Assembly (NCBI RefSeq): GCF_000420425.1
Contig: NZ_ATUX01000006.1
Span: 62,001-126,000 of the forward strand
From: Schaalia vaccimaxillae DSM 15804
Lineage (GTDB): Bacteria > Actinomycetota > Actinomycetes > Actinomycetales > Actinomycetaceae
Direction: 5' to 3'
DNA length: 64,000 bases
Part shown: piece after piece, positions 5,981-17,353 of the stretch
Layout: each line of letters starts with the position of its first letter
Position numbering within the stretch: position 1 is the stretch's first letter
Program-made: the position numbers and the translations under genes
Notes under the pieces: generated by a model
Database searches by the model: none
What the model was told of the DNA's origin: nothing
What the model saw: only the letters and a program-made list of their open reading frames with translations

Positions 5981-6928
5981 ATGAAGTACTCGGTTAACTA
6001 CGATTCTAAGACTCCTACCCGCACCGCTTTTGGTGAGGAAATCGTTGAGATCGGCAAGGAACGCCCCGAGGTCTTCGTTGTTGACTGCGATATCGCTAAG
6101 TCTTGCCAGACCACGGCGTTTTCCAAGGCTCTGCCCGAACAGCATGTCAACGTCGGCATCGCTGAGCAAAATGGCGCAGGCGTCGGCGCAGGCCTGGCAA
6201 CAACCGGCAAGATTCCTTTCGTTGTCACTTACGCCGTGTTCGGTTCACTACGCATGGGAGAGCAGATCCGTCAGTCCATCTGCTACCCGAACCTCAACGT
6301 CAAGATCGCCTGCTCGCACGGCGGTCTGACCCCCGGTAACGATGGTGGTTCTCACCAGGCTATCGAAGACATGGGCACCATGCGCGGCATGCCGAATATG
6401 TCCGTCGTGATGCCCGCAGACGCGAACTCGACCAAGAAGCTGGTCCGTGCAGCCACCGACTGGGTTGGCCCCATGTTCCTACGCTTCACCCGTGATGCGG
6501 TGCCGGACATCTACGGTCCCGATGAAGAGTTCGAGATCGGCAAAGCCAAGATTCTTAACGAGGGCGAAGACGTTGCAATCATCGCCAACGGCGACACCGT
6601 GCGTTTGGCAATCGAAGCTGCCGAGCAACTCGAAGCCGAAGGAATCAAGGTCCGCCTGCTCGACATGCACACGATCAAACCGCTCGACCGCGATGAGGTT
6701 CTCAAATGCATCGAGACGGGCAAGATCGTGACCGTTGAAGATCACCAGGTACTGCACGGCTTGGGCGCCGCAGTGTCCCAGGTTGTTGCCGAAGAAGGAG
6801 GCGCGCGCGTGCGCCAGATCGGTATCCAAGACCAATTTGGCCAGTCCGCAACCTACGAGGAACTCCTCGAAATGAACGGCATCACCGTCGAAGGCATCGT
6901 TGCCGCGGCCAAGGAGCTGCTCGCCTGA
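5981..6928 (+). CDS. Transketolase, C-terminal subunit
   Basis: 315 residues containing the pyrimidine-binding domain (catalytic Glu62 in GIAEQNG) and the C-terminal transketolase domain (about 190-310). It is separated from its partner's TGA by one base, with GAGAAGGGA as ribosome binding site, which implies translational coupling and equal production. Together the pair transfers a two-carbon ketol unit. Related two-subunit enzymes act in pathways such as apulose-4-phosphate or sulfofructose degradation. No kinase or isomerase is linked here, so the pathway remains open. Confidence 0.9.
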   Translation: MKYSVNYDSKTPTRTAFGEEIVEIGKERPEVFVVDCDIAKSCQTTAFSKALPEQHVNVGIAEQNGAGVGAGLATTGKIPFVVTYAVFGSLRMGEQIRQSICYPNLNVKIACSHGGLTPGNDGGSHQAIEDMGTMRGMPNMSVVMPADANSTKKLVRAATDWVGPMFLRFTRDAVPDIYGPDEEFEIGKAKILNEGEDVAIIANGDTVRLAIEAAEQLEAEGIKVRLLDMHTIKPLDRDEVLKCIETGKIVTVEDHQVLHGLGAAVSQVVAEEGGARVRQIGIQDQFGQSATYEELLEMNGITVEGIVAAAKELLA

Positions 6929-6951
6929 TCGGCTGATCCCCACCTCGACCC

Positions 6952-7018
6952 GACCCGGTTGATCCACATGCTTTGTTCCTCCAGCCCAAAGCATGTGATC
7001 AGCCGGGTCACGGTTTTA
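6952..7018 (+). terminator. Long terminator closing the transketolase operon
   Basis: Outer stem GACCCGG (6952-6958) with CCGGGTC (7003-7009), and inner stem ACATGCTTT with AAAGCATGT. Intervening TTGATC/GATCAG also pairs with one bulge. CGGTTTTA follows. Confidence 0.85.
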
Positions 7019-7119
7019 TATCCACGAGAGTGCATGGGGGCCTTGCAGTTGGGCACGGACGTGGGCAGTTGCACTGTCCACATGGCTGGATCGACGCTGC
7101 CAGCGACTGCCTCGAGGCG

Positions 7120-7125
7120 TAGTCT
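7120..7125 (+). promoter_or_regulatory. Putative -10 of the pyr operon (TAGTCT)
   Basis: TAGTCT matches the TAGNNT box used at many starts in this window. Transcription would begin near 7132 and give a leader of about 50 bases that carries the PyrR-binding element. No convincing -35 is seen. Confidence 0.45.
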
Positions 7126-7141
7126 GTTTGTCGGAAGCAAT

Positions 7142-7174
7142 CCTTTAATGACCGTCCAGAGAGGCGGGGAAGGA
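7142..7174 (+). promoter_or_regulatory. PyrR-binding RNA element over the pyrR Shine-Dalgarno
   Basis: The leader reads CCTTTAATGACC, then GTCCAGAGAGGC, then GGGGAAGGAG. GTCCAGAGAGGC is the conserved PyrR-binding loop known from Firmicute pyr attenuators. Here it runs straight into the AAGGAG that serves the ATG at 7182, and there is no terminator/antiterminator pair. This arrangement matches the translational repression by PyrR described in mycobacteria: PyrR with UMP would bind and hide the ribosome binding site. Confidence 0.85.
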
Positions 7175-7181
7175 GATCCGC

Positions 7182-7751
7182 ATGGGATCAGTGCAAGCAT
7201 CCGCAGATCGCGCAAGTCGCGGCAAAGAAGTGCTCGGCGCTCAAGATGTCGCCCGTTCTTTGACTCGCATCGCCTTCGAGATCCTCGAGAAAAACGGGGG
7301 AGGTGAAGGCCTCATTATTGCGGGAATCCCAACTCGTGGCGCAACTCTTGCCCATCGCCTCGTTGAGCGCATTGAGCAAGTTGGTGGCCCACGCCCGCAA
7401 TTTGCTCAGCTCGACACAACGATGTTTCGCGACGACTTAGGTTCCCAACCTCTGCGTACCCCTCACGAGACAGTCATCCCAGTCGAAGGTATAGACGCCC
7501 GCACCGTCGTCCTCGTCGACGATGTCCTCTACACGGGACGCACCATTAAGGCAGCCCTCGATGCCCTCATGGGAATTGGGCGTCCCTCTATCGTCCAGCT
7601 TGCGGTTCTGGTTGACCGAGGCCACCGTGAACTTCCCATCCGGCCCGACTACGTCGGTAAAAACCTGCCAACATCGCATACCGAGACTGTGACCATTCTG
7701 CTCGAAGAAACCGACGGACGTGACGCGGTCCTTCTGGGAAGGAGCGCCTAG
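7182..7751 (+). CDS. pyrR: Bifunctional pyr operon regulator / uracil phosphoribosyltransferase
   Basis: 189 residues, type I phosphoribosyltransferase fold. The PRPP-binding motif [13 protein letters not shown] is at 109-121, and [12 protein letters not shown] at 48-59 is typical of PyrR. PyrR binds pyr mRNA when UMP is abundant, and many members also convert uracil and PRPP to UMP. It heads the operon and is preceded by its own recognition element, so it should autoregulate. The ATG at 7182 is set by AAGGAG. The pyrB start lies one base beyond its stop. Confidence 0.95.
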
Positions 7752-7752
7752 C

Positions 7753-8745
7753 ATGAGCCTCGACCATCTGATCTCCATTCGCGATCTTGACTACCGTGAG
7801 GCGGTTCAGCTGCTCGATACTGCCGAACAGATGGCAGCCACACAGTCGCGACGAGTTAAAAAACTTCCAACACTTCACGGCCGCACAGTGGTTAATCTTT
7901 TCTTCGAAGACTCCACGCGCACGCGGCTCTCTTTCGAAGCCGCGGCAAAACGTCTGAGCGCGGACGTTATCAACTTCTCAGCCAAAGGATCTTCTGTGTC
8001 AAAGGGGGAATCTCTTAAAGACACTGCACTGACCTTGCAGGCCATGGGCGCGGACGCGGTCATCGTTCGTCACTCATCATCTGGTGCTGCGCACCGTCTG
8101 GCCCACGCAGGGTGGATGAATCTGCCTGTCCTCAATGCTGGTGACGGTACGCACCAACATCCCACTCAAGCACTGCTCGACGCGATGACATTGCGCCGCC
8201 ACTACAAACGCGATCCCCAGGCTAACCAGGCCGAGCCACTGGCTCCCGGCACCGACCTGAAAGGAGCCAGGGTTGTCATAGTCGGAGATGTCTTGCACTC
8301 TCGCGTCGCCCGATCCAACGTCGATCTACTGACTCTGCTGGGCGCTCAAGTCACTCTGGTTGCCCCGCCAACGCTCCTGCCCGTTGGGGTCGAAAACTGG
8401 AACTGCGTCGTCGAATATGACCTAGACCGTGCTATCGCTCAAGAACCCGACGCCATCATGATGTTGCGCGTCCAGCGTGAACGCATGAGCGGTGCCGGGG
8501 GAGGATTCTTCCCATCACCTGGCGAATACCATGCCGCCTACGGCCTCGACAGCCAGCGCTATGCCCGATTGCCAGACGACGCCATCGTCATGCACCCGGG
8601 ACCCATGAATCGAGGTCTGGAAATTTGCGCCCAGGCCGCAGACTCACCCAAGTCCGTCATCGTTGAACAAGTGTCCAATGGTGTGAGCGTGCGTATGGCA
8701 GCTCTCTATCTACTTCTTGCTCCGGAAGGAACCACCCGTGACTGA
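7753..8745 (+). CDS. pyrB: Aspartate carbamoyltransferase catalytic subunit
   Basis: 330 residues. The carbamoyl-phosphate motif STRTR is at 54-58, followed by the loop [13 protein letters not shown] and, near the C terminus, HPGPMNRG. It condenses carbamoyl phosphate and aspartate to N-carbamoyl-aspartate. No regulatory pyrI is present. The ATG at 7753 follows GGAAGGAG, two bases after the last base of pyrR. Length and motifs are normal for the family. Confidence 0.95.
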
Positions 8746-10054
8746 AAACCGTGACCTGCTAATCCGGGGTGCCGACCTCGTGGGAAACGGAGCGAATGAC
8801 CTCCTTATCCGCGACGGAATCATCATTGCCGCCGGATCGCAAGCACAAGACGAAGCACACGACGCTCGGATTATTGACGCCGAGGGACTCATTGCTTTGC
8901 CCGGCCTCGTCGATATTCACACCCATCTGCGCCAACCTGGCCAAGAGGATGCTGAGACAGTATTTACCGGAACGCGTTCAGCCGCAGTTGGCGGATACAC
9001 CGCGGTCCACGCAATGGCTAACACGAATCCTGTGGCCGATACCGCGTCAGTTGTCGACCAGGTTCTTGAACTGGGCCAGGAAGCAGGATGGGTGCAGGTA
9101 CGCCCTGTCGGTGCTGTCACCGTTGGTCTTGAAGGCAAGCAGCTGTCGGCTATGGGTGCGATGGCCCGCTCACGCTCACAGGTCCGTGTCTTCTCCGATG
9201 ACGGCAAGTGCGTTGCCGATCCAGTCTTGATGCGTCGCGCCCTCGAATATGTCAAGGCGTTCGACGCGGTGGTCGCCCAACATGCCCAGGACCCCGTGTT
9301 GACCGAGGGCGCGCAGATGAATGAATCGGCACTCTCGGGCGAACTTGGTTTGGCCGGCTGGCCTGCGGTCGCTGAAGAAGCCATCATTGCCAGGGACATC
9401 CTTCTGGCCAAACATGTGGGTTCACGTCTGCACGTGTGCCACCTATCCACTGCAGGATCAGTCGACATCGTCAGGTGGGGAAAGAAGATGGGTGTGAATG
9501 TTACCGCTGAGGTGACACCACACCATCTGCTATTAACTGAAGAACTCGCTCGCAGTTACGACCCGATCTACAAGGTGAACCCGCCACTGCGCACGGCTGA
9601 GGACGTTGAAGCGGTGCGTGAAGGGCTGGCAGACGGCACCATTGACGTGGTGGGTACCGACCATGCGCCTCACCCCCTCGAATCGAAAGACTGTGAGTGG
9701 CAGTCCGGATCATTCGGTATGACAGGCCTTGAGACCGCGCTACCCGTTGTCATTGAAACGATGGTCAATACCGGTCGTATGGATTGGAATGACGTCGCCC
9801 GTGTCTTATCGACGACGCCTGCGCGTATCGGACGGGTGGCAGGTCAAGGACAAGCCCTCGAGGTCGGTGCCAACGCCAATCTCACTCTGGTCGATCCCAC
9901 GGTTCGCCGTGTGGTCGATCCACGCCAGCAGTGGACCCGATCGACGAACTCACCTTACAAGGGACTCGAGTTACCTGGTCGCGCACTGTACACGATCTAC
10001 GAGGGCGCCATCACCGTCGATAGCGGCGTGCCGATTGAAAAGGAGAATCGCTGA
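8738..10054 (+). CDS. pyrC: Dihydroorotase (type I)
   Basis: 438 residues, amidohydrolase fold. The metal ligands HTH are at 61-63 in [13 protein letters not shown], the catalytic Asp308 lies in [11 protein letters not shown], and GLETALPVV is also present. It closes carbamoyl-aspartate to dihydroorotate. I chose the GTG at 8738, which overlaps the pyrB stop and has GGAAGGA 7 bases upstream. A TTG at 8717 lacks such a site. The stop overlaps the next start as TGATG. Confidence 0.94.
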
Positions 10055-10638
10055 TGACCAACATTGCATTACTCGTCCTCGAAGACGGAACCGTTTACGT
10101 GGGGACCGCTTGGGGAGCAACAGGATTGGTGGTTGGCGATGCGGATTTCACCACCGAAATGATCGGCTATCAGCGTCCAATGACCGATCCTGAAAAGGTC
10201 GGGCGCATCCTCGTCATGACCACACCTCACGTGGGAATTGGCGCCTTCGACGAAAATGATGACGCACAGATTACGCCTGCGGGCCTGGTCGTGCGTGAGC
10301 CAGCGCGACCGCATCCGCTCAAGAAACGCCGAGAACTTGTCGAACAGCTCCAAGCCGAGAACGTCATTGGAATCGCAGGTGTGGATACTCGCGCTATTAC
10401 ACGACGCATACGAGCAGCAGGTTCCATGCGAGCAGCCATTGTCTCTGGCCAGATTTTGCCCGCATCTGCGGCATACCTGGAGGGCAGAAGCCGCGAGAGC
10501 CTCGATCTGAACTTCATTACCGAACAATTCCAGGCTGGACAAGCTGGTGCCGACACCGCATCAACATTCGACCTGTTCATCGATTCCATGTGTGCAGCCA
10601 AAGCCGATCACTTAGCGGCTGAAAGGACGGCGCTCTGA
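10054..10638 (+). CDS. carA: Carbamoyl-phosphate synthase small subunit lacking the glutaminase domain
   Basis: Only 194 residues, where CarA is usually about 360-400. Residues 1 to about 150 match the CarA N-terminal domain ([37 protein letters not shown]). The class I glutamine amidotransferase domain, with its Cys-His-Glu triad and GICLGHQ-type motif, is absent in every frame: only about 130 bases remain before carB. The start overlaps pyrC and the stop overlaps carB, both as TGATG, so the gene looks trimmed and maintained rather than decaying. CarB would then have to use free ammonia or a glutaminase encoded elsewhere. The last 45 residues match nothing I recognise. Confidence 0.85.
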
Positions 10639-13600
10639 TGCCCCGTAGAACAGACATTCATTCCATCCTCGTCATTGGTTCAGGCCCTATCGTTATTGGC
10701 CAGGCCTGCGAGTTTGACTATTCGGGCACCCAAGCGTGCAGGATTCTCAAATCTGAGGGCTACCGCGTCATCCTCGTCAACTCCAATCCCGCCACGATCA
10801 TGACTGACCCGGGCATGGCTGACGCAACATATGTTGAACCACTGACCCTGGACGTCATCACTTCAATCATTGATAAAGAACGCCCCGATGCGCTGATCGC
10901 CAACCTGGGTGGGCAGACTGCTCTGAACACTGCAATCGAGTTGGGCGAGGCCGGTGTTTTGGAAAAGTACGGCGTCGAATTGATCGGCGTTTCCCTGGAT
11001 GCTATCCGCAAGGGCGAGGACCGTGACGAGTTCAAAGCGGTTGTCGAACGCTGTGGAGCTGAGGTTGCGCGTTCCTTTATCGCCCATTCCATGCAAGAGT
11101 GTCATGAGGCCGCCGCCGAATTGGGGTATCCGCTGGTCGTTCGCCCATCGTTCACTATGGGTGGCCTTGGATCTGGTTTTGCCTACACGCCTGAGGATCT
11201 TGAACGGATCGCAGGGGAGGGGTTGACAGACTCGATTACGAACGAGGTGCTACTCGAAGAGTCCATCTTGGGGTGGAAAGAGATCGAATACGAGGTCATG
11301 CGTGACTCCGCGGGCACCTGCATTGCCGTCTGTTCCATCGACAATGTTGATCCTGTAGGCGTACACACTGGTGATTCCATCACCATTGCCCCCGCGCTGA
11401 CCCTGACCGATGAGGAAGCCACGAAACTTCGTGAGCTCAGCTTCCAAATCATTCGCGAGGTCGGCGTCGAAACAGGAGGCTGCAATATTCAGTACGCCTT
11501 GGATCCACGTACGGGCCGCGTCATTGTCATCGAAATGAATCCGCGTGTGTCGCGTTCGTCGGCTCTGGCGTCAAAGGCCACCGGTTTTCCGATTGCCAAG
11601 ATTACGGCGAAGTTGGCCATTGGCTATACGCTCGACGAGATCCGTAATGACATCACGGGTGCCCCTGCTTCAGCGGATCCGAGCGTGGACTATGTCGTGG
11701 TCAAGGTTCCTCGTTTCACTTTTGAGAAGTTCCCGGCTGCTGATCCAACCCTCACGACTTCAATGAAAGCCGTGGGTGAAGCGATGGCCATTGGTCGCAA
11801 CTACACCGAAGCATTGCAAAAGGCTCTGCGCTCGATCGATAAAGCGGGGATCCAATTCCATTGGAATGGTCCGGTCCCTTCCTCGCAGGAGACACGGGAT
11901 CTGGTCGAGGCTGCGGCAACTCCCACCGAAGCCCGCTTAGTTCAGGTCCAACAGGCTATCCGTGGCGGAGCCTCACTCGAAGATCTTTACGAGTCGACGA
12001 AGATTGATCCGTGGTTCCTCGACCAAATGTATCTGCTCGACGAGGTCGCTCAACGTATCATCAATGCACCAGCATTGGGGCGCGAGGTTCTTGAAGAAGC
12101 CAAACGGCACGGATTCTCGGATCGCCAGATCGCGGACATGCGAGGTCTTTCCGAGCACACGGTGCGCGAGGTTCGCGGCGCTTTTGAAATCCATCCGGTT
12201 TTCAAGATGGTCGATACCTGTTCTGCACAATTCGCTGCGGACACGCCCTACGCTTACTCCACTTACGACCAGGAAAACGAGGTGCGTCCTCGCGAACGCG
12301 AAGCCGTCATGATCCTGGGCGCTGGCCCAAACCGCATTGGCCAGGGAATCGAGTTCGACTACTCCTGCGTCCATGCGACGATGGCTTTGTCGCAGCATTT
12401 CGAAACGATTATGGTCAACTGCAACCCTGAGACAGTCTCGACCGACTATGACATTTCGGACCGCCTGTATTTTGAGCCGCTGACTCTTGAGGATGTACTT
12501 GAGGTGTACCGCGCCGAGTGCGCTGCGGGACCGGTGCGAGGCGTCATCGTTCAGTTGGGCGGCCAAACCCCGCTGTCCTTGGCTGAAGAACTCAAGAAAG
12601 CGGGTGTTCCGATTCTTGGAACCTCACCGGAATCCATTGAGTTGGCTGAAGACCGTGAGGAGTTCGGTAAGGTCTTGGAAGCTGCTGGGTGTCCGGCTCC
12701 CGCCCACGATGTGGCTCATTCTGTGGCCCAAGTACACGCAGTGGCCCGCGAGTTGGGCTATCCGATTTTGGTGCGTCCTAGCTTCGTTCTGGGGGGACGA
12801 GGTATGGCAATCATCAACGATGAGTCGGCTCTGAATGAATACCTGGATCGCGATGACATCGATCAGATGTTTGCCCGTGGGCCCCTTCTGATCGACCGCT
12901 TCTTGGATGCAGCAATTGAGATCGATGTCGATGCTCTGTATGACGGCAACGAATTGTTCATGGGCGCAATCATGGAGCATATTGAGGAAGCCGGTATTCA
13001 CTCTGGCGACTCGGCCTGTGTTTTGCCTCCAATGACGCTGTCTGGCCGAGAGCTTGAGCGTATTACGGCCTCGACTGAGGCAATTGCCCACGGCGTGGGA
13101 GTTCGCGGCCTGATTAATATCCAATTCGCTTTGCTCTCAGACACCCTGTATGTCATCGAGGCGAATCCGCGTGCATCCAGGACGGTTCCTTTCGCTTCGA
13201 AGGCGACGGGTGTGCAGCTAGCCAAGGCTGCCGCCCTCATCCAGGTTGGTGAGACGATTGAGTCTTTGCGAGAGCAGGGGATTTTGCCCAGTTTTGATGC
13301 TCGGACGATTCCCGACGACGCTCCAATTTCCGTCAAAGAGGCCGTCCTTCCCTTTAGGCGCTTCCGCACCGTTGACGGCAAAGTCGTTGACACCATCCTC
13401 GGGCCGGAAATGCGATCAACGGGCGAGGTCATGGGCATCGACCGTGATTTCCCGACAGCCTTTGCAAAGTCTCAGTCAGCTGCTGTGAGCGAATTGCCGA
13501 TGGAAGGTAATGTCTTTATCTCGATCTCCGATTCGGATAAGCGAGCCATTGTCTTCCCTGTGGCTCGCATGCGTGAGCTTGGTTTCCATATCATGGCAAC

Positions 13601-13937
13601 GGCTGGCACGGCCTCGGTTCTACACCGTAACGGTATTGAAGCCCAGATCGTACGCAAGTCCTCGGATGGACGTGGCCCGAATGGCGAGCCAACGGTCGTT
13701 GATCTCATTAACGATGGCTTGATCGACATTATTGTCAACACACCTCAGAAGTCCTCGAACCGCCATGATGGCTACCAAATTAGGACCGCGGCGACCTCGA
13801 ACGACAGAACAATCATCACGACTCTGCAGGCCTTTAACGCTGCGGTGCAAGCCATTGAGGTGCGCCTACGCGGCGCATACCGCGTGCGCTCATTGCAGGA
13901 GTGGAGTGAATTGCGCAGCCAAGGGGATGTTGCATGA
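10638..13937 (+). CDS. carB: Carbamoyl-phosphate synthase large subunit
   Basis: 1099 residues, full length. The order is: carboxyphosphate half with [16 protein letters not shown] near 15, ATP-grasp about 130-400 (GLGSG loop, [18 protein letters not shown]); an oligomerisation region; carbamoyl-phosphate half with [15 protein letters not shown] near 560, a second ATP-grasp ([17 protein letters not shown]); and an MGS-like allosteric domain from about 960 to the end. It makes carbamoyl phosphate from bicarbonate, ammonia and two ATP. Translation is coupled to the shortened carA. Everything needed for the ammonia-dependent reaction is present. Confidence 0.96.
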
Positions 13938-14785
13938 CCACGAAGCAGGGGTTTGGCGACCGTTTGTATGAGGCAATGCGAAAATTCGGTCCAGTCTGTG
14001 TGGGTATTGATCCTCATTCGTCTCTGCTGGCTCAGTGGGGGCTCAGTGATGACGTCGAGGGCGTGCGCGCCTTTTCCATGACTGTCATCGAAGCTCTTGG
14101 CGGTAAGGTTGCGGCTTTTAAGCCTCAGGCCGCTTTCTTTGAGCGCTTCGGATCGCGTGGCGTTGGTGTGTTAGAGGAGGTGATCGGTGCCTCGAAGGAT
14201 GCCGGCACTTTGTGCATTGTTGATGCCAAGCGTGGTGATATCGGTTCAACAATGAGGGGATACGCAGATGCGTTCTTATCCGATGACTCGCCCTTGGCTG
14301 GAGACGCCGTAACGCTTTCGCCCTATTTGGGTGTCGGTTCTCTCATGCCGGCTTTGGAGCTGGCGCATGAATCTGGCAGGGGAGTGTTTGTCTTGGCGTT
14401 AACCTCCAATCCCGAGGGTGCCTCGGTTCAGCATGCACGGAGTGTTGACGGAGTGTCGGTCGCCGGCGCGGTCGTCGGTCAATTGGCAACCTTTAATACA
14501 AAATGTGATGCACATCACATTGGCCCTGCTGGCATCGTTATCGGGGCCACCGTTGGAGATTCGGTCCGCTCACTCGGCATCGATTTAGCAGCGCTCAAAG
14601 GCGCATTCCTGGCCCCAGGAATCGGAGCGCAAGGAGCCGGACCAATGCAGGTCAGGAATGTTTTTGCAGGGGTAGAGGACACAGTCCTCGCATCCTCGTC
14701 TCGCGCCATCCTCGCTCAGGGCCCCAGCATCGAAGGCTTGCGTCGAGCGTATGGACAAACCGCCTCAGAAATGACATTCGTATGA
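13934..14785 (+). CDS. pyrF: Orotidine-5'-phosphate decarboxylase (type 2)
   Basis: 283 residues, of the longer mycobacterial-type PyrF rather than the 230-residue E. coli type. The catalytic motif DAKRGD is at 97-102, CVGIDPHSS at 22-30, and a phosphate-binding region PGIGAQGA lies toward the C terminus. It converts OMP to UMP, the last step of the pathway. The ATG overlaps the carB stop as ATGA. pyrD and pyrE are not in this operon. Confidence 0.95.
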
Positions 14786-14791
14786 CATGAA

Positions 14792-14908
14792 TGCGGAGTC
14801 AGATCGGATAGTGACGCGCAAACCACCGATAAAGGTGTCATGCTAATCACACGATTTGGTCCTATGTGAGGAGTGGTCCGAAATGGCTCTACCCGATCTG
14901 ACTCCGCA
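14792..14908. repeat. Perfect 16-bp inverted repeat bracketing the mihF start
   Basis: TGCGGAGTCAGATCGG (14792-14807) is the exact reverse complement of CCGATCTGACTCCGCA (14893-14908). The right arm lies in codons 4-9 of mihF; the left arm is 7 bases past the pyrF stop. The 85 bases between hold the Shine-Dalgarno and start codon. In a transcript reading through from pyrF the arms could pair and enclose the start region. Confidence 0.75.
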
Positions 14909-15194
14909 GCAACGCGCCGAGGCGCTTGAGAAAGCGACACAAGCACGGCGTCGCCGCGCAGAGATTAAGACTGCGCTCAAGACCCGGCAGATGCAGCTAT
15001 CTGAAGTTCTCACGATGGCCGAATCCGATGAAGCTATCGCAAAGATGAGGGTAGTTGCTTTGCTCGAATCCCTCCCGCGGGTCGGGACAACAACTGCTGC
15101 TGCACTCATGGAAGAGTGCGCCATCGCACCTTCGCGCAGAGTTCGTGGCTTGGGCCCAGTTCAGCGTGAGCAGCTCGTCAAGAAGTTTGGCTAG
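14883..15194 (+). CDS. mihF: Integration host factor, actinobacterial type (mIHF)
   Basis: 103 residues. A basic N-terminal helix (about 10-35, ARRRRAEIK) is followed by a helix-two-turn-helix region (SLPRVGTTTAAALMEECAI, then RRVRGLGPVQREQL). This is the actinobacterial nucleoid protein mIHF, unrelated to E. coli IHF, which binds DNA without strict sequence need and is usually encoded before gmk, as here. The ATG at 14883 is chosen because TGAGGAG lies about 9 bases before it. An upstream in-frame start at 14856 has no such site. Confidence 0.93.
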   Translation: MALPDLTPQQRAEALEKATQARRRRAEIKTALKTRQMQLSEVLTMAESDEAIAKMRVVALLESLPRVGTTTAAALMEECAIAPSRRVRGLGPVQREQLVKKFG

Positions 15195-15239
15195 GCGCGC
15201 GATTCGGCCCAGAACCGATCCGGATGGCAGTATGACCAC

Positions 15240-15797
15240 ATGGACATTCCTCGCTTGACGGTTCTTGCAGGTCCCACGGCTGTGGGTAAGGGTACGGTCG
15301 TTGCTCTACTGCGACAACGACATCCTGAGCTTGTTGTGTCCATTTCAGCAACGACCCGTTCTCCGCGTCCAGGTGAAATCGACGGTGTCCACTACTACTT
15401 TGTCTCGGACTCCCAGTTCGATGACCTCATTTCCTCCGGCAATATGCTCGAATGGGCAACTGTCCATGGTAGACATCGCTATGGCACCCCCAGGCCTCCC
15501 GTCGACGAGGCATTAGATGCGGGTAAAAGCGTACTTCTGGAAATCGATCTGTCCGGCGCACGTCAGGTTCGTCAAAGCCGCCCAGATGCCCGCTTCGTCT
15601 TCCTTGCGCCACCGTCGTGGGACTGCCTTGTCGATCGGCTTGTCTCACGTGGCACCGAGGACGAAGCCGAACGCAGCCGTCGGCTCGAAACAGCCCGAAT
15701 AGAAATGCAAGCGGAAAGCGAATTCGACACAACTGTGATCAATGACGACCTCAAGACCACCGTGTCCGAACTGGCTCGAGTCATGGGCCTGGAGTAG
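15240..15797 (+). CDS. gmk: Guanylate kinase
   Basis: 185 residues. The P-loop GPTAVGKG is at 11-18, the GMP-binding region reads SATTRSPRPGEIDGVHYYF, and a lid region lies near LVSRGTEDEAERSRRLETA. It phosphorylates GMP to GDP. No Shine-Dalgarno is visible before the ATG at 15240. A weak -10-like CAGTAT six bases upstream may signal a leaderless start, but its match is poorer than at other genes here. It sits between mihF and rpoZ, the usual actinobacterial order. Confidence 0.94.
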   Translation: MDIPRLTVLAGPTAVGKGTVVALLRQRHPELVVSISATTRSPRPGEIDGVHYYFVSDSQFDDLISSGNMLEWATVHGRHRYGTPRPPVDEALDAGKSVLLEIDLSGARQVRQSRPDARFVFLAPPSWDCLVDRLVSRGTEDEAERSRRLETARIEMQAESEFDTTVINDDLKTTVSELARVMGLE

Positions 15798-15842
15798 ACT
15801 TGCCAACCGTGGCCAAATGGCCGAATTTTGAGGAGGAGACGT

Positions 15843-16109
15843 ATGTCCGGAATCGTCGCACAGCCCGAGGGTATTACTTCACCGCCCATCGACGACCTGC
15901 TTGAGCATGTCGATTCGAAGTACGCGCTGGTGATCTTCGCGGCACGCCGCGCCCGACAGATCAACTCCTACAACCTTCAACTCGAACAGAACATGATTCA
16001 ATTCGTTGGCCCTGTGGTCGATGTTGAGCCAGACGAAAAGCCTTTGGCTATCGCCCTGCGCGAGATCAACAAAGGTGTTCTGTCTCTCGAGGCTGAACCC
16101 GGAGCCTGA
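15843..16109 (+). CDS. rpoZ: RNA polymerase omega subunit
   Basis: 88 residues. It carries the omega core [28 protein letters not shown] and a C-terminal region with [10 protein letters not shown]. Omega assists assembly and stability of the beta' subunit. The ATG at 15843 has GGAGGAG immediately upstream; the upstream TTG at 15828 is rejected because it would put that site inside the gene. It follows gmk in the standard actinobacterial order. Confidence 0.94.
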
Positions 16110-16114
16110 TCGCT

Positions 16115-17353
16115 GTGTCCCGCACAATCATTGTCGGGGTCACCGCAGGAATAGCCGCGTACAAGGCAGCCAGCCTTGTGCGCGAGCTCATTAAAGCTGG
16201 GCACGATGTTCACATCGTGCCCACTCCTGCATCCACCCAATTCATTGGCACCGCAACATGGGAAGGCCTGACGGGTAACCCTGTCCACACTGGAGTGTTT
16301 GACGCTGGAGGCGCCGACCATATCGAGTTGGCGCGCCGCGCCGACCTCATTGTGGTGGCACCTGCAACCGCCGACTTTATTGCGCGCACACGTGCGGGCA
16401 TCGCAGATGACCTGCTCACCACGACAATTTTGGCTTCCTCCTGCCCGGTGATCATCGCCCCGGCAATGCACACCCAAATGTGGTTGTCACAGGCCACCCA
16501 AGACAATGTAGAAACGCTTAAGTCTCGGGGAGTGATCTTCATCGCCCCTGAAGATGGAGCACTCGGCTCGGGAGACTTCGGCGTCGGCCGCATGGCTGCA
16601 CCCCAGGCGATTGCCTGGCGCGCCCTCAATGTCTTGACCGGATCTGCTGGAAACGAATCCGACCTGGCATTAACAGGATGCCGTGTCCTCATCACTGCCG
16701 GCGGCACGCGTGAGCCTATCGACCCCGTTCGTTTTATAGGAAACTCATCTTCTGGCCGTCAAGGAGTTGCTTTGGCCCGGGCAGCCAGCGATGCGGGCGC
16801 TAATGTGACCCTGATCGCCTCAAATATTGACGCTTCTATTCTCAATGAATTGCCCTCCGGCATTTCGATTGTCAGCGCTCCAAGTGCAGCCGAGGTCGAA
16901 AAGAGCGTGATGGAACGTCTTAACCACATTGACGTCGTCATCATGGCTGCAGCTATTGCGGACTTCAGACCCAAAGCTGCGCATGACTCAAAGATCAAGA
17001 AGGATCCATTGTCAACCGAGGCTCCTACGATCGCGCTGGAACAAACCACCGATATTCTCGCCGCCGTAGCGCAGTCATCCGACCGTCCGTCAGTCCTAGT
17101 TGGTTTTGCTGCGGAAACGGGAACACTCGATGAAGTTCTCGAGCTCGGTCGCCAAAAGGCGCTTCGAAAGAACGCCGACCTACTTGCTGTTAACCGCGTC
17201 GGACACGGACACGGTTTTGGTGACGTTGATAATTCCGTCTATGTACTTGACCATCTTGGAAAGATGGTTGGCCAAGCATCGGGTACTAAAAGTATCGTTG
17301 CTCAGGAGTTGATCTCGATGATTGCCCTCAGACTCGGTACGATTGCCAGGTGA
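16115..17353 (+). CDS. coaBC: Bifunctional phosphopantothenoylcysteine decarboxylase / synthetase
   Basis: 412 residues. The N-terminal flavoprotein CoaC domain (1 to about 180) has the active-site His69 (ADHIEL) and the APAMH motif at 115-119. The CoaB synthetase domain (about 188-405) shows [24 protein letters not shown] and [10 protein letters not shown]. It makes 4'-phosphopantetheine for coenzyme A. The GTG at 16115 starts 5 bases after rpoZ. The stop overlaps metK as GTGA. Confidence 0.93.

Follow-up and report, generated by a model that had tools for sequence, protein, structure and literature searches.

The two-subunit carbamoyl phosphate synthetase (CPS) of Escherichia coli, CarAB (CPS II type, PDB 1JDB), has in common with the enzyme described here its two genes in a pyr operon, the domains of its large subunit CarB and the fold of the N-terminal domain of its small subunit CarA. 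Unlike E. coli CarAB, the present enzyme is missing the entire glutaminase domain and has lost Ser47 of CarA together with a patch of CarB residues. Pyrococcus and Methanobrevibacter smithii have systems that make carbamoyl phosphate from ammonia; the former has a different protein fold, the latter is a short synthetase dimer, and neither includes a CarA. They are a carbamate kinase-like CPS and a small CPS, respectively (PMC6022934). Human CPS1 (the ammonia CPS, or CPS I, of the urea cycle; PDB 5DOT) is a single chain that depends on N-acetylglutamate and retains an inactive glutaminase-like domain, whereas here carA and carB are separate open reading frames and the glutaminase domain is deleted. 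Judged from sequence, the present enzyme would work like a CPS I yet not be a member of that class, its subunits being separate and the domain gone. A further parallel is NAD synthetase, whose fold and glutaminase differ from those of CPS. That family has glutamine- and ammonia-dependent forms, that is, synthetases with and without a glutaminase (PMC3376133). A literature search covering titles and the starts of abstracts, with most subscription journals outside its reach, returned no glutaminase-deleted bacterial CPS with a kept N domain. What appears new is a bacterial CPS from which the glutaminase has been removed several times with the N domain kept and CarB changing along; the parts themselves are known.

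We analyzed a window of 64,000 nucleotides from Schaalia vaccimaxillae DSM 15804 (contig NZ_ATUX01000006.1, positions 62,001 to 126,000), in which a complete operon, pyrR-pyrB-pyrC-carA-carB-pyrF, lies on the + strand (Table 1). Both carA junctions are clean TGATG overlaps, as the initial annotation had described them, joining the pyrC stop to the carA start (10052-10056) and the carA stop to the carB start (10636-10640). A search of 6900-16200 with Rfam at the gathering threshold found no known RNA element at the operon. The same annotation had taken carA for a real, short gene encoding the N-terminal domain only, and Pfam bears this out: the protein matches PF00988 over residues 7-129 (110 bits against a cut-off of 27) and no GATase domain, and it falls below the cut-off of the CarA model TIGR01368 (107.7 bits against 307.35). 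A class I glutaminase domain with its catalytic Cys, His and Glu is absent from the protein and, as had been claimed, from its surroundings, where a tblastn search (E up to 1e-3) with the glutaminase domains of five CarAs gave no match in 19 kb around carA. The annotation had named a full-length CarA elsewhere in the genome as grounds against its reading; a second CarA was ruled out by a single PF00988 match genome-wide (13 contigs, completeness 100). CarB is full length, as stated, with CPS large-chain domains in Pfam.

Table 1. The pyr operon of the window and features of its CarA and CarB.
Feature	Position in window	Strand	Evidence and remarks
pyrR, first operon gene	7182..7751	+	189 aa; ORF; matches in 4/4 short-CarA genomes of the genus
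pyrB, aspartate carbamoyltransferase	7753..8745	+	ORF; PF02729 and PF00185; start picked by eye
pyrC, dihydroorotase	8738..10054	+	ORF; PF01979, PF12890; start picked by eye
carA, glutaminase-free small subunit	10054..10638	+	194 aa ORF; Pfam; tblastn
CarA N-terminal domain (PF00988)	10072..10440	+	fold of E. coli CarA 2-145
CarA codon 47 = Glu, at the E. coli Ser47 position	10192..10194	+	column counts, long versus short CarA
CarA C-terminal helix, residues 171-193	10564..10632	+	model; apparent remnant of full-length CarA C-terminus
carB, full-length large subunit	10638..13937	+	1099 aa ORF; E. coli CarB match over 1-1074
CarB patch residues 227-279	11316..11474	+	constant with full-length CarA, altered in short-CarA lineages
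CarB residues 343-347, second part of patch	11664..11678	+	column comparison
pyrF, operon end	13934..14785	+	ORF; matches in relatives

Two details of the initial annotation needed revision. The gene is as short as it had said, but the gap of about 130 bases that it placed between domain end and carB is larger, as the last base of the Pfam domain is 10440, which leaves about 200 bases up to carB. Its statement that CarA ends after the N-terminal domain holds for the loss of the glutaminase and not for a plain truncation, since the tail resembles the C-terminus of full-length CarA. From residue 141 onwards, the match of the window CarA to full-length C-termini beats 500 of 500 shuffles, as does that of the CarA tail of a close relative (G008), and residues 171-193 of the window protein form a helix in the predicted structure. 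Because both tails align in this way, the domain loss in the window's lineage has the appearance of an internal deletion that kept the frame, not of a simple truncation. The tails of five other short CarAs (G001, G455, G449, G523 and G548) showed no alignment to full-length CarA C-termini beyond chance; the types of deletion event differ between short-CarA lineages.

The short form recurs well beyond the window. PF00988 was found in 31 of 35 sampled genomes of the genus; CarA and CarB are both present in 31 of the 35 and both missing from four (G016, G018, G042, G044). Four of the genus CarAs are short (194 aa in the window's genome, G000; 196 in G008; 165 in G001 and G002) and 27 are full length, among them the frameshifted CarA of G017. 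A profile built from the four short Schaalia sequences (A1) matched 167 of 213 genomes of the family, which from its named members we infer to be the Actinomycetaceae. Loci were inspected for 101 of the 167; 65 of the other 66 were taken as full length from listed open frames of at least 390 aa, and G483 was not listed. In 28 of the 167 CarA-bearing genomes CarA is 125-200 aa long and the locus lacks a glutaminase; the 139 counted as not short include G483, G564 (cut by a contig end) and the 65 judged by open-frame length alone. By genus, the short form is found in four genomes of g1, 10 of the 11 CarA-bearing genomes of g26, 8 of 8 in g16, 2 of 3 in g126, 1 of 3 in g127, two of g17 and the single CarA-bearing genome of g111; g1, g17, g26, g126 and g127 also have full-length sisters. 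The initial annotation had called for a search of related genomes and had held that loss of the form in close relatives would speak against it; the search found the short CarA in close relatives, and six other genera have it too.

Pfam matched PF00988 in all 26 of the short CarAs scanned (26 of the 28), and tblastn of the fetched loci ruled out that such a glutaminase domain lies at another place near carA. The short carA reading frame appears sound in 27 of 28 genomes; in G559 (locus L208) carA looks frameshifted from roughly residue 80 onwards, next to a broken carB, and in G455 (L201) carB is likewise not one open frame. The broken genes of these two genomes may reflect decay or sequencing error. 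G017 and G489 were rejected as short CarAs and not counted, both being frameshifted full-length genes. Across the phylum, 358 of 396 genomes had a match to the CarA profile. Outside the family these included low-scoring CarAs (for example G651 and G677; codes f37 and f62), some from poor assemblies, and a few high-scoring CarAs with short open frames (G832, G899, G914 and G930, all fragmented assemblies), so the short form may extend beyond the family. In the order, 381 of 396 genomes matched, and all matching genomes outside the family did so at 1.8e-42 or better.

The distribution of the short form points to repeated origin. We built a CarB tree from alignments with patch columns 218-356 and 524-536 removed, using a quick search and a plain model and leaving out ten divergent long-CarA genomes, G559, G564, the partial or broken G545, G547, G455, G554 and G537, and eight near-copies; three of its nine outgroup rows (G025, G031, G035) were placed among family rows. 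On this tree the 24 short rows (G545, G547, G455 and G559 are the short ones outside it) need six changes, all six forced by starred branches, and form six groups: g16 with g111; G548; G449; g26; G001 with G002; and G000 with G008. Read as domain losses, the six changes would be six events. A tree of five pyr proteins also sets the two Schaalia short-CarA groups apart and rejects a single clade (AU p 0.004), and a single origin of all short CarAs was rejected on this test together with the CarB tree. The window's genome and G008 are grouped by carB (support 100) and not by pyrR, pyrB, pyrC or pyrF (window 10054-13937 versus L071), a conflict that may reflect transfer of carAB between lineages or a wrong gene tree.

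By its motifs, one single-contig genome, G498 (g27), is an intermediate in which a dead glutaminase domain is still present. Its CarA of 388 aa (L244:5282-6445, - strand) reads GTGLG in place of GICFG and QQHRG in place of QYHPE, which removes the Cys and the Glu of these motifs, and has Ser47 replaced by Ala and Tyr48 by Asn. The Cys motif is found in 78 of 81 long CarAs and is missing from G498 and the frameshifted G017 and G489. A sister genome, G397, has an intact CarA, and the CarBs of the two are 93% identical. In keeping a dead glutaminase domain, G498 is the closer parallel to CPS1.

What remains of CarA is maintained. The dN/dS of the short CarA is 0.06-0.24 in 8 of 9 measurable pairs, against 0.04-0.15 for the N domain of long CarAs in the 5 measurable of 6 pairs; by this measure the short CarA is under purifying selection, at a constraint somewhat weaker than that on the long-CarA N domain. 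The constraint is unevenly distributed over the domain. In column counts made without ten divergent long-CarA genomes (G498 included) and the frameshifted G017 and G489, core residues A5, G12, P58, H59, G61 and R83 are kept in 28 of 28 short CarAs and D114, T115 and R116 in 27 of 28. E29, T42 and S47, on the other hand, are kept in none of the 28, W76 in one, and Y48 and Q51 in two, whereas E29, S47, W76, Y48 and Q51 are present in all 69 long CarAs and T42 in 66 of 69. Ser47 (E. coli numbering) has a role in glutamine binding.

CarB shows a similar division between what is kept and what is released. Pfam places PF02786 and PF25596 (two stretches each), PF02787 and PF02142 in the protein, corresponding to two ATP-grasp halves, the oligomerisation domain and the MGS-like domain. 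Within the first half, which the residue check covers, R129, R169, E215, H243, Q285, E299, N301 and R303, which we take to be catalytic, show no change in any of the 26-27 short genomes with data. Elsewhere CarB has changed together with CarA. Among 577 columns that depart in no more than one of 36 full-length-CarA genomes, 51 are altered in at least one of the four short Schaalia genomes, and 22 of these fall within 218-286. A larger set comprised 487 columns with a constancy of at least 97% across 71 long-CarA genomes; its counts left out the ten divergent long-CarA genomes (G498 included), G559 and G564, and treat related species as independent. Here V230 and R259 are retained in 1 of 26 short genomes and I269 in 3 of 26, versus 70-71 of 71 long ones; F346 is retained in 2 of 25, and Q262, T279 and E347 in 4 of 26. 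The mean share of conserved columns altered is 0.50 for 261-280, 0.29 for 341-360, 0.27 for 221-240 and 0.14 for 241-260, with other bins mostly at 0.00-0.05 and six at 0.09-0.21, two of these from one or two columns. Fourteen conserved columns are altered in at least 70% of short genomes; when 27 long genomes were drawn at random 200 times, no draw gave such a column. Single long-CarA genera have 0-15 of them, the 15 belonging to g122, two species on a long branch. Over the 14 patch sites, 25 of 26 short genomes depart at 7-14 (G455 at 4) and 70 of 71 long genomes at 0 or 1 (G397 at 3); the ten divergent long-CarA genomes left out depart at 3-7 of 13-14.

In CarB, contacts with the small subunit are made by the carboxyphosphate domain (1-400) and by the oligomerisation domain (401-552), according to a review (PMC6245113). 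Most altered sites lie within 1-400, and F532 (kept in 9 of 26) lies within the oligomerisation domain; from the domain-level statement of contacts, we infer that the patch is a released glutaminase interface. The accessible parts of PMC4360534 and PMC6941894 give no interface residues, and a literature search on Q678P, a variant of human CPS1, as a marker of the interface yielded nothing useful. In CPS1 the tunnel gate consists of Cys648, Ala667 and Ala729 (PMC4655335). On our own mapping of these residues to E. coli CarB positions, the short genomes keep A251 and A314, and C232 in 21 of 26, with Thr in the other 5.

We favor, with considerable confidence, a two-subunit bacterial CPS that has lost glutamine hydrolysis, uses free ammonia and keeps the N-domain CarA as partner of CarB. 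The initial annotation had likewise proposed an ammonia-dependent synthetase with a glutaminase-free CarA, and the proposal is supported by the single CarA, its occurrence in relatives, purifying selection, the kept catalytic residues of CarB and the loss of Ser47 and the patch. As the glutaminase half is lost and the rest is under selection, the enzyme probably runs on free ammonia, in several Actinomyces-like lineages and unexpectedly for a bacterium. CarB would carry out all three synthetic steps, taking ammonia directly to carbamate and then to carbamoyl phosphate, and the CarA N domain would remain bound as a structural partner. In-frame deletion or truncation, close to the domain boundary, would have taken out the glutaminase domain some six or more times in the Actinomycetaceae. 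The N domain's glutamine-site serine and the face of CarB that met the glutaminase would then have been free to change. E. coli CarB makes carbamoyl phosphate from ammonia at high concentration, but the concentrations that this reaction requires are very high and likely of no physiological relevance (PMC6245113). For human CPS1, an external ammonia path has been proposed that enters at the surface, between Glu82 and His142, and follows the interface as far as the gate (PMC4655335); by this likeness, the CarA N domain may be kept for ammonia entry, perhaps as part of a path along the subunit interface.

A bolder version of this reading, on which we are evenly divided, would have a true ammonia CPS evolving repeatedly, with the N domain a separable, indispensable clamp for ammonia entry into CarB, reducible to about 130 residues, and with independence from glutamine permitting later loss of glutamine synthetase. 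Glutamine synthetase (PF00120) had no match in 8 of 213 family genomes, namely the short-CarA G356, G518, G520, G526, G558 and G560 and the CarA-less G553 and G557. It is absent from 6 of 28 short-CarA genomes versus 0 of 139 other CarA-bearing ones (Fisher p 1.4e-5, or 0.003 without three genomes at no more than 91% completeness, both uncorrected for relatedness, with G356 and G526 close kin) and retained in the remaining 22 of 28; the absences speak for the favored ammonia-using enzyme, the retention against it.

The rival that survives best, itself improbable, is that a separate class I glutaminase (such as PabA/TrpG or a generic amidotransferase) docks on CarB and the short CarA and feeds ammonia through the old tunnel. 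Candidates exist in the window genome, which has seven PF00117 proteins. Four of them score above an NCBIfam cut-off (TrpG/PabA, GuaA, HisH, PurQ), none reaches that of CarA, and three are above no cut-off and lack a firm assignment. G001, G002 and G008, however, have only 3, 3 and 4 PF00117 matches, the fewest among CarA-bearing genus genomes aside from the incomplete G021 (3), and no TrpG/PabA-type row, which is also missing from some long-CarA genomes (G006, G007, G020). All 28 short CarAs lack Ser47, and the CarB patch is altered in most short-CarA genomes, with different residues in different lineages, which suggests release rather than a new shared docking site. With the patch released in parallel lineages and so few glutaminases in three relatives, the borrowed glutaminase that the initial annotation had offered as an alternative is disfavored.

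Slightly less probable again is a synthetase that no longer matters and is heading for loss, with the short CarA a relic. Complete loss of CarA and CarB from 4 of 35 genus genomes fits this account, as do the apparently broken carA and carB of G559 and the interrupted carB of G455, but a relic would not be expected to show purifying selection, to keep all tested CarB catalytic residues, to have a sound frame in 27 of 28 cases or to sit within the pyr operon, as carA does in all four short-CarA Schaalia genomes. On a par with it stands an ammonia-dependent enzyme whose main job has shifted from pyrimidines to arginine synthesis or ammonia disposal. In 9 of 28 short loci (7 of 8 in g16, G474 and G548), pyrR, pyrB, pyrC and pyrF had no match in the fetched stretch, which reaches at most about 6 kb to the upstream side of carB and 2 kb to its downstream side. 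The carbamoyl phosphate made in these genomes may therefore go to arginine; the window's carAB, by contrast, lies inside a complete pyrRBC-carAB-pyrF operon. An assembly or sequencing artefact, in favor of which stand the frameshifted full-length genes that pass for short CarAs in G017 and G489, was rejected as next to impossible, since 28 separate assemblies share the architecture, with coordinated changes in CarB, and some of them (G049, G558 and G548 among others) are a single contig.

For E. coli CPS the nitrogen donor is glutamine, which is extended to bacterial CPSs in general (PMC6245113). On the favored reading of an ammonia-using synthetase, a central enzyme seems to have given up this donor on roughly six or more occasions in one family, and an intermediate with a dead domain can still be seen. 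The role of the CarA N domain would thereby be separated from that of the glutaminase, and the lineages would form a natural experiment marking which CarB residues serve the glutaminase only. They would also offer ready test enzymes for operation of the synthetase on free ammonia. The reading predicts unusual nitrogen needs in Schaalia and its relatives, which include many inhabitants of humans and animals.

Two minor observations concern the wider pyrimidine context. Five g16 loci (L203, L205, L206, L207, L209) look as if the pyr genes had been excised around the short carAB, whose neighbors in g16 loci are presumably efp, nusB and guanylate kinase. CTP synthase (PF06418) had no match in 20 of 35 genus genomes, including the window's and all four with a short CarA; it is present in the other 15 and was matched in all 14 control genomes.
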